Assembly: GCF_034092395.1 (NCBI RefSeq)
Contig: NZ_CP139301.1
Coordinates: 1,364,001 to 1,428,000 of the forward strand
Reading direction: 5' to 3'
DNA length: 64,000 bases
From: Prochlorococcus sp. MIT 1307
Lineage (GTDB): Bacteria > Cyanobacteriota > Cyanobacteriia > PCC-6307 > Cyanobiaceae
Below, piece after piece: positions 21,819-24,430 of this stretch. The notes under the pieces were generated by a model. It ran no database searches. It was not told the DNA's origin and saw only the letters and a list, made by a program, of their open reading frames with translations. Numbering within the stretch: position 1 is the first letter of the stretch; each line of letters begins with the position of its first letter. The translations under genes and the position numbers were made by a program.

Positions 21819-22415
21819 TTATTTTTGGTTGATTTCTAGTTCTTTGCGAGGGGTGGGCCCAAGCCATCTTTCTAGTTGAGGACTAAAAACTTCTCGAATA
21901 ACAGTTAGCTCTCGCTCCTGTCGAAAGAATCGATAATGCCTACTCCAGAAAGGACCTTTTTGTTGAAACTCTGATTCCAGCCAGTCAGCTTTTACTAACG
22001 CCAATCCATCCACTTCACGAAAAAGCTCTGATCGTCCTTGAGTAAGACTTTTCCATATTGGTAGCTCTTTGTTTTTAAGGTGTAATTCGGCTTCTTTGTG
22101 GTTCCACCAGCTTTCTGCCCAGGCAAGAGTTTGAGAATTGCATGTAAGCCATACCTGTCGCCTTAGTAATGGAGGAGCTAGCTCTTTTGTTTCTATTGGA
22201 GCACCTTTGTTTGGTGAAGATTCGTATGCCATTGCAATCAACTTTATTTGGACTTCATGCCCAGTTAGAAGATGCAGATGACGAGTTGGACTCCCATCGC
22301 CTAGCAGCATGAGTTGCCATGGGCCTGGTAGTTTTTGTGGACCTTGACCATAAAGGACAGCATTGGTAGGGGCTTCCCAAACTGGTTTAGGTGAAATAAG
22401 TAGTGAATTATTCAG
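21819..22415 (-). CDS. Chorismate lyase-like protein (chorismate to 4-hydroxybenzoate), probable CTG start
   Basis: A UbiC-like chorismate-pyruvate lyase, expected in cyanobacteria to supply 4-hydroxybenzoate for plastoquinone. The core motif LLGDGSPTRHLHLLTG resembles the W-LLxDxSxT segment of UbiC, and the C-terminal FFRQERELTVIREVFSP matches the second half of the fold. The first ATG (22310) falls after the conserved tryptophan (GPWQLM), so it would cut the first strand. The frame stays open upstream to a CTG at 22415, preceded by AGGAGG with a 6-base spacer. There is no in-frame ATG, GTG or TTG before the TGA further up. From the CTG the protein has 198 residues. It follows mnmG by 35 bases. 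Confidence 0.75.
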   Translation of the reverse strand: MNNSLLISPKPVWEAPTNAVLYGQGPQKLPGPWQLMLLGDGSPTRHLHLLTGHEVQIKLIAMAYESSPNKGAPIETKELAPPLLRRQVWLTCNSQTLAWAESWWNHKEAELHLKNKELPIWKSLTQGRSELFREVDGLALVKADWLESEFQQKGPFWSRHYRFFRQERELTVIREVFSPQLERWLGPTPRKELEINQK

Positions 22416-22438
22416 GAGTCACCTCCTAAAATGAGGAG
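22411..22438 (-). promoter_or_regulatory. Hairpins sequestering the Shine-Dalgarno and start of the chorismate lyase gene
   Basis: On the minus strand the sequence reads CTCCT, six bases, AGGAG, GTGA, CTCCT. The AGGAGG at 22427-22422 is the ribosome binding site. It can pair downstream with CTCCT (22418-22414) around a GTGA loop, which is a GNRA-type tetraloop; with flanking U-A and U-G pairs the stem reaches about 8 pairs and buries the CTG start. Alternatively it can pair with the upstream CTCCT (22438-22434). Two mutually exclusive partners for one SD are suggestive of translational control, but this is a reading of base pairing only. Confidence 0.5.
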
Positions 22439-22450
22439 TAGGTATCAATG

Positions 22451-24430
22451 TCATTGTCTTTGGTTGTTATCTAATTCGTATTTTTTGTTAGCTTCAGGAT
22501 GATGGTTGAGCTTTAGCCAAACGAGGAGTGCAGTTAAATCAGCTTTACTGACCCCTGGCAATTCAGCTGCTTGGCCAAGGTTTTTGGGGCTACATTCGGC
22601 TAATTTTTCTCGGGCTTCTTGAGAAATTGTTGTTATTTTTTGAAAATTTATATTATCTGGAAATATCCTTTTTGTTTGTCTTTTAAATTGTTCAATTTGT
22701 GCAGTTTGACGTTTTAAGTACCCACTATATTTGATGTCAATTTCTGCACCTTCTTTAACCGCTATAGGAAGTGTTTTGTCCGATAAGCCGTGTCTTGCTA
22801 AGTCAGTTATATGGAAACCTGGTCGACGCAATAGATCTGCCAATTGAATTGATCCTTTGATTGGCGCACCAGTTTCTTCTGTAATTAATTTTGCTTTTGG
22901 ATCACTTTCTTTAAGTCTGTATGTTTCTAGACGCTGCTTTTCATCTTCTAGGGCTTTTTGCTTGGATTGATATAATAGCCATCGCCTGTGGTCAATCAGT
23001 CCGAGTTTGTAGCCGAGTGGAGTCAGACGTCTATCTGCATTGTCTCCTCTTAGTACAAGTCGGTATTCACTTCTACTTGTTAATACGCGATAGGGCTCAC
23101 GAAGATCTTTACTAACTAAATCATCAATCATTGTCCCTATATAACTGTCTTCACGCCCAAAGTGTATTGCTTCTTGACTATTAATCAGTCTAGCTGCATT
23201 TACTCCTGCTACTAATCCTTGAGCTGCTGCTTCTTCGTAACCAGTAGTTCCATTTAGCTGGCCTGCAGAAAATAGCCCTCCTATCTTTTTTGTTTCTAAC
23301 GATGGGAGCAATTGTGTTGCAATCAGATAGTCATATTCAACTGAGTATGCAGGGCGTAACATTACACAATTTTCAAGGCCAGGAAGTGTTCTAAGTAGTT
23401 CCAGCTGAATACTTTCTGGTAGGCCAGTCGAGAACCCTTGAACGTAAATCTCCGGAGTGTTCGCCCCCTCTGGTTCCAGAAAGATTTGGTGAGATTCTTT
23501 GTCTGCAAAACGTACTATTTTGTCCTCAATTGAAGGACAGTATCGAGGACCTTTACTATTGATAAAACCTCCATAAATAGGTGTTAGGTGTAGGTTCTCT
23601 TTTATTAGCTGGTGTGTTTTTTTTGTAGTCCGAGTTATATGACAGCTCATTTGTTCTCCACTAAACCAAGCCTTGGGATCAAATGAGAAGAAACGGTCTG
23701 CGGCAGTGCTTGGTTGTTCCTCTAAAGAATTTAGTTGAATGCTTCTTCGGTCAACTCTTGCAGGGGTTCCAGTTTTCAGTCGATTTGTTTGGAAACCTAA
23801 TTTTTGCAGTGCTTCTGTCAGACCCTCTGCTGCTTGTTCTCCAGCGCGCCCTGCAGCCATTGATTGGTTGCCTACCCATATTTTCCCACCTAGAAAAGTT
23901 CCTGTTGTCAGAATTACTGCTTTAGCTTTGTAGATGCTTCCAAAGTAAGTTTTTATTCCTTTAATTTGTCCAATTCTTTCTTTTATAAGAGAGCTATTAT
24001 TTTTAGAATTTTTATCCATCTCTTCTTCTACTTCAAGTCCAGTTACCATCGCTTCGCGAATAGCTAAGTTTGGAGTCTCGTGTAAAATTTGAAGCATTTT
24101 TTGTGTATATAAGCGTTTATCTGTTTGAGCTCTCAGAGCCCAAACTGCTGGCCCTCGGCTTGCATTAAGAATCCGTTTTTGTATGGCTGTTGTATCTGCT
24201 AATTTTCCAATAATCCCTCCGAGGGCGTCTACTTCATGGACGAGTTGGCTTTTAGCTGGTCCTCCAACAGCAGGGTTGCAGGGTTGCCACGCGATGCGGT
24301 CGATATTGAGAGTAAATAGAGCGGTTGATAGTCCTAAGCGAGCAGTGGTTAGAGCAGCCTCACAGCCTGCATGACCTCCGCCAACGACAATTACGTCAAA
24401 GGTTTCGTTGGTGTTGCTCAATTTGTCCAT
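22451..24430 (-). CDS. mnmG: tRNA uridine-5-carboxymethylaminomethyl modification enzyme
   Basis: MnmG/GidA works with MnmE to modify U34 of certain tRNAs. The 659-residue protein has the N-terminal FAD-binding loop [21 protein letters not shown], the family segment [43 protein letters not shown], and the C-terminal helical GidA-associated domain ([17 protein letters not shown]). It is intact. dnaB lies 27 bases upstream on the same strand and the chorismate lyase gene 35 bases downstream. Confidence 0.96.

Follow-up and report, generated by a model that had tools for sequence, protein, structure and literature searches.

A probable CUG start codon for chorismate lyase, conserved across most marine Prochlorococcus and Synechococcus

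By reading the minus strand of the window, a 64,000-nucleotide stretch of Prochlorococcus sp. MIT 1307 DNA, and by comparing the region across marine picocyanobacteria, we found that the chorismate lyase gene probably starts at the CTG at 22415. This would be a weak, lineage-conserved CUG start, preceded by a strong Shine-Dalgarno (SD) sequence and followed by an A at +4, that was born as a CUGA overlap and holds the output of the enzyme low, a reading to which we give a probability of about 0.7. With the same confidence, and as part of the same joint explanation, the CTG start would be ancestral to marine Prochlorococcus and Synechococcus. The features on which the analysis bears are as follows.

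21819 to 22415, minus strand: chorismate lyase, 198 aa from the CTG plus the stop (NF037993, PF01947 and AF2 model)
22413 to 22415, minus strand: CTG at which chorismate lyase is proposed to start, with an expected initiator Met (sole NTG before the ATG at 22310 with an SD; CTG in 125 of 165 marine loci)
22412 to 22412, minus strand: A at +4, giving CTGA (A after CTG in 121 of 125 CTG loci)
22422 to 22427, minus strand: AGGAGG Shine-Dalgarno, together with the TGA reading AGGAGGTGA (6 nt 5' of the CTG)
22419 to 22421, minus strand: in-frame TGA two codons 5' of the CTG, which bounds the possible protein starts (sequence reading)
22308 to 22310, minus strand: internal ATG (Met36), first canonical start and an unlikely start (the conserved N-terminus lies 5' of it)
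22411 to 22430, minus strand: predicted 8-pair hairpin over the SD and the CTG, unconserved (folding and alignment)
22434 to 22438, minus strand: CTCCT upstream of the SD, in the window only (alignment of seven genus members)
22451 to 24430, minus strand: mnmG (GidA), upstream neighbour (PF01134, E 2.6e-160)

The minus-strand frame of chorismate lyase reads TGA (22421-22419), CTC, CTG (22415-22413) and AAT AAT TCA, and the first in-frame ATG, GTG or TTG after the TGA is the ATG at 22310-22308, as the initial annotation had stated for the stretch between these two codons. Its placing of the CTG six bases after an AGGAGG was also borne out, the AGGAGG at 22427-22422 being separated from CTG 22415 by 6 nt. 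According to a protein search, the gene is present in a single copy in the genome, where the CTG is its sole SD-linked NTG candidate start. Scans for promoters and terminators around the chorismate lyase start found none on the minus strand.

Translated from the CTG, the protein covers the whole cyanobacterial chorismate lyase model NF037993 (263.3 bits for a cut-off of 175, model positions 1-176 of 176), with position 1 of the model aligning to residue 12. When translated from ATG 22310, it enters the model only at position 25, and positions 1-24 are lost. In an alignment of 19 sequences, S8, P9, W13, G31 and W33 are invariant, all of them encoded 5' of Met36, and an AF2 model computed with a 19-sequence alignment (pLDDT 84.2) places a strand at residues 10-16, again before Met36. 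W13 agrees with the earlier statement that a conserved tryptophan is encoded before ATG 22310, and the N-terminus of the family lies 5' of this ATG. Since the start of NF037993, the invariant residues and the predicted strand all precede Met36, chorismate lyase must begin 5' of it.

To place this CTG in its genomic background, we surveyed 464 kb (about 23% of the genome) for SD-linked CTG codons upstream of the first canonical start. A coding-score threshold of 40 retained 220 genes and excluded chorismate lyase, and the survey was therefore carried out at lower thresholds. Such a CTG was found in only one of 350 gene-like ORFs, namely chorismate lyase, and at a laxer threshold in two of 389 ORFs, the second case having its CTG immediately 5' of an ATG. 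Because only 64 of the 350 gene-like ORFs have SD-linked canonical starts, the full AGGAGG found here is unusual. A relaxed initiator tRNA was ruled out by the ordinary GGG/CCC initiator-type anticodon stem, which 17 of the 20 searched genomes have, among them that of the window, where it lies within a tRNA-Met. As a near-cognate (AUU) control case, infC was also ruled out: among 20 loci examined, an in-frame ATG lies 19 codons before the motif in 11/11 same-family loci, and two of the 20, from other families, lack the motif. The ordinary initiator stem and the upstream ATG of infC together mean that no general CUG licence is seen in the genome of the window. CUG is described as a very poor bacterial start (in passages of PMC11497404 and PMC4633059): its complexes are less stable than those formed on AUG, GUG and UUG (PMC11497404), and in mycobacteria CTG showed no enrichment even when an SD was present (PMC4633059). 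In the open-licence literature we found no CUG start in chorismate lyase and no lineage-conserved cyanobacterial CUG start, subscription papers being mostly outside the scope of this search.

Protein searches gathered 241 relative loci, many of them from single-cell or metagenome assemblies. After removing three loci without the anchor motif (L092, L095 and L180) and 39 duplicates, 199 distinct loci were kept, 165 from marine Prochlorococcus and Synechococcus and 34 of Cyanobium type, used as outgroup. Starts were assigned by rule first, with 20 rows ambiguous and six without a start. The ambiguous rows were set by hand from their neighbours, to GTG at -9 (LLI-type), to CTG (four HL rows) or to ATG (Cyanobium-type), and six more rows were switched by hand from TTG or ATG to GTG. 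The names HL-type and LLI-type are labels made in this analysis and rest on genome size and branching. The tree is a quick LG+G4 protein tree computed without the start region.

With these partly manual assignments, the 165 marine loci comprise 125 with CTG, 31 with GTG, four with ATG, four with TTG and one with none. A count that is free of assignments points the same way: 93 of the 165 marine loci lack any ATG, GTG or TTG from the upstream in-frame stop up to the SP motif, and none of the 34 loci of the Cyanobium-type outgroup does so. CTG was assigned in three outgroup loci, probably wrongly because an ATG lies upstream. An SD-linked CTG is found in 93 loci, at a spacing of 6 in 74 of them, and the in-frame stop lies at most three codons from the start in 30 of the 165 marine loci. 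HL-type loci (g18) have CTG in 30/30 with no SD found, and one large LLI-type clade has GTG without an SD. On the tree, single marine lineages carry ATG, TTG or GTG and the remaining marine branches carry CTG, with 13 changes between CTG and other starts over 192 assigned rows. A sequencing error at the CTG was ruled out by the occurrence of the same codon in many independent assemblies. This lineage-wide comparison strongly supports the CTG start that the initial annotation had proposed. However, roughly one marine locus in four was not assigned CTG, which is therefore not essential.

A few loci show particular arrangements. In the HL-type loci (L183-L212), the bases just 5' of the CTG (GCA) are nearly invariant. 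CTA occupies the CTG site in L049 and L142; L142 has a GTG three codons after the CTA, and in L049 no NTG precedes the SP motif. In a same-family relative, contig C48 of G015 has a pair of neighbouring frames that resemble chorismate lyase, as well as a third, partial match.

We counted the changes at the start site along the tree and found 12 at the first base, none at the second, one at the third and 10 at +4. By comparison, 13 fourfold sites in this gene underwent between 34 and 61 changes each (median 44), all of them more than the first start base or +4. Given that any change of the first base would yield a legal and usually stronger start, this slow change suggests that the C is kept by selection. 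The HL clade shows no change at the CTG, but 1 of 22 fourfold sites is also unchanged there, so this clade alone proves little. For the N-terminal codons, pN/pS is 0.45 and 0.28 in the genus of the window and 0.12 and 0.19 in HL, counted with segment pairs less than 35% identical left out, and judged by these values the codons are under protein-level constraint in both groups. Constraint on the codons between the start and the SP motif is weak in some clades (pN/pS of 0.74 in the LLI-type GTG clade, 0.63 in g5 and 0.80 in g58). The A at +4 is found in 121 of the 125 CTG loci, and 51 of these 121 have no long overlapping frame. It could be explained by pairing with U33 of the initiator tRNA, by reduced structure or by an out-of-frame stop, three roles of an A4 named in a passage of PMC9841429, or by descent from the overlap.

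In the window, the mnmG stop (22453-22451) lies 35 nt 5' of the CTG. The upstream gene is mnmG in the genus of the window and in most other Prochlorococcus, where outside the window it was called from its C-terminal sequence. In 70 of the 125 CTG loci a long upstream frame has its stop within the CTGA, the arrangement found in NTGA termination-reinitiation, and the window has no such overlap. In Synechococcus and in MIT 0701-like loci, the upstream frame ends with GGAF and the stop, or similarly, and shares its TGA with the CTGA; one of these frames gave a weak match to T2SSC, below the cut-off. The mnmG frame runs through the SD to a stop at the CTGA in some lineages and stops earlier in others, the window included. 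Tails of mnmG type such as GGVC or GGSF followed by the stop indicate that the length of the C-terminus drifts between lineages. In L020, L023, L025, L041, L063, L072, L113 and L176, a frame of mnmG type crosses the SD and stops at or beside the TGA of the CTGA. Also, a mini-ORF of 10-11 codons that begins with ATG (22419-22454 on the minus strand of the window, and in L003, L004, L005 and L012) ends at a stop beside the SD, and in the window this ATG and the mnmG stop share bases (ATGA).

Under the reading that we favour, translation of chorismate lyase would start at CTG 22415, with the strong SD guiding the ribosome so that the initiator tRNA is set on the CUG despite the mismatch at its first position, and a fourth base pair may form between the A at +4 and U33 of this tRNA. 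The combination of a weak codon and a strong SD would give a low and steady output of an enzyme whose sole task would be to supply a minor flow into 4-hydroxybenzoate and plastoquinone. Control of chorismate flux is a plausible possibility. The CTG would have arisen in the marine ancestor, where CUGA formed a stop/start overlap, and would have outlasted this overlap. Where the CTGA still overlaps an upstream stop, in Synechococcus and, within Prochlorococcus, in MIT 0701-like and several further lineages, ribosomes finishing upstream could re-initiate, and in the lineage of the window the CUG and the SD would have been kept without the overlap.

A start at ATG 22310, with the upstream codons untranslated, is scarcely credible. 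This ATG is the first canonical start, and the PF01947 match begins only at residue 37 of the CTG-started protein, a boundary that does not decide on the start; but such an enzyme would lack the five invariant residues S8, P9, W13, G31 and W33, positions 1-24 of NF037993 and the confidently predicted strand at residues 10-16, and the codons upstream of the ATG have a low pN/pS. Very improbable too is the proposal of the initial annotation that a hairpin burying the SD and the CTG acts as a thermometer or switch for chorismate lyase. The two alternative SD pairings on which it relied do exist in the window. With the downstream CTCCT, TTTAGGAG (22430-22423), a GTGA loop (22422-22419) and CTCCTGAA (22418-22411) form a hairpin of 8 pairs, the predicted MFE structure of the window (-10.3 kcal/mol), and with the upstream CTCCT (22438-22434) the SD can pair across a 6-base loop. 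However, the energy of the hairpin is within chance (-10.3 compared to -9.1 +/- 2.4 in shuffles keeping the SD and the start). Across seven genus members, 67.9% of the cells of the 8-pair stem are paired, with no compensatory (double) change among them, and the upstream CTCCT, sought in the same seven, is found in the window alone. The SD is not buried beyond shuffles over 99 SD loci (mean accessibility 0.20 compared to 0.23, mean z -0.21), its accessibility in the window, as a prediction only, is flat at 0.16 at 4, 15, 20, 24, 30 and 37 C, and Rfam gave no match. Neither of the two marks of an RNA thermometer, a conserved and compensated stem over the SD and its opening with temperature, was thus found, and the hairpin was rejected as a conserved control element on the conservation, shuffle, temperature and Rfam results. 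The refuting case named by the initial annotation, relatives that have an ATG at this position and no hairpin, gave a split outcome, since the relatives keep the CTG but lack the hairpin. Somewhat less remote, though still improbable, is that ribosomes arrive via an 11-codon leader running in the same frame from ATG 22454 to TGA 22419 and re-initiate at the CTG 3 nt past its stop: five of seven genus members have an ATG 10-11 codons 5' of the stop, at closely similar alignment positions, but the leader is missing in L002 and L006, its peptide is not conserved and its stop is TAA in L005.

A larger share of doubt goes to the possibility, which we nevertheless hold at below even odds, that the gene does start at the CTG but that this codon is a non-regulatory relic of a CTGA stop/start overlap, persisting by inertia and by the constraint of the overlap. 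Where the TGA of the CTGA ends an upstream frame of at least 40 codons (73 loci), CTG is found in 70 loci and the start base changed twice, compared to 11-29 changes at 18 fourfold sites. Among the 92 loci without a long overlapping frame, CTG is found in 55. CTG being better kept with the overlap than without it, the overlap accounts for part of the constraint, but not for all of it: in these 92 loci the first base still changed 11 times, fewer than any of the 13 fourfold sites (17-31), which speaks against a mere relic. Several independent replacements of the CTG and the identity of the +4 A with the last base of a former stop fit a relic, whereas the HL loci retain CTG in 30/30, and in the overlap a final TTC mutated to TTT, which would keep Phe and turn the start into TTG, is rare (one TTG in 73). 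Selection could also have done more than our favoured reading supposes, and have kept the CUG across most marine picocyanobacteria as a built-in plastoquinone brake made of three matched parts: a strong SD at fixed spacing, the CUG and the A at +4, which might restore, one base out of register, a run of three codon-anticodon pairs. We regard this stronger version as doubtful.

Prochlorococcus and Synechococcus are the commonest phototrophs of the ocean, and chorismate lyase is the entry step to plastoquinone. A plastoquinone-entry gene relying on CUG in most of their lineages would show CUG as a stable, working start, and natural contrasts are at hand in relatives with CTG, GTG, ATG or TTG, with or without an SD and with or without an overlap. 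If the brake were real, it would amount to a natural, lineage-wide start-codon rule outside AUG, GUG and UUG. Gene callers often consider just ATG, GTG and TTG (as stated in a passage of PMC5601948), and annotation limited to these codons will shorten or misplace chorismate lyase.

The arrangement of the gene can be compared with several known systems. It resembles the NTGA (-4 nt) termination-reinitiation pairs, a motif described in a passage of PMC12548453 as the most common spacing, in that the CTGA and the upstream stop have two bases in common in 70/125 CTG loci; unlike them, N is C here and the gene of the window has no long overlapping upstream frame. The AF2 model resembles AF1396 (2nwi, E 3.4e-8) and E. 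coli chorismate lyase (1fw9/1g1b, E about 4e-6), which points to a fold common to the protein of the window, E. coli UbiC and AF1396, whereas the former is of the PF01947/NF037993 type. Two E. coli genes offer the closest parallels for the start codon. The AUU start of infC is a conserved near-cognate start that serves autoregulation by IF3. Chorismate lyase shares the conserved near-cognate start, but no feedback is expected for it, and cyanobacterial infC has an upstream in-frame ATG. The AUU start of pcnB makes this gene translationally limited, as shown by experiments. Like pcnB, chorismate lyase would be a housekeeping gene whose output is probably kept low by a near-cognate start, with CUG in place of AUU and comparative in place of experimental evidence; two marks of such a limiter that can be read from sequence, the impossibility of a canonical start and the conservation of the codon, were both found, with CTG as the only possible start in 93/165 marine loci and CTG as the assigned start in 125/165.
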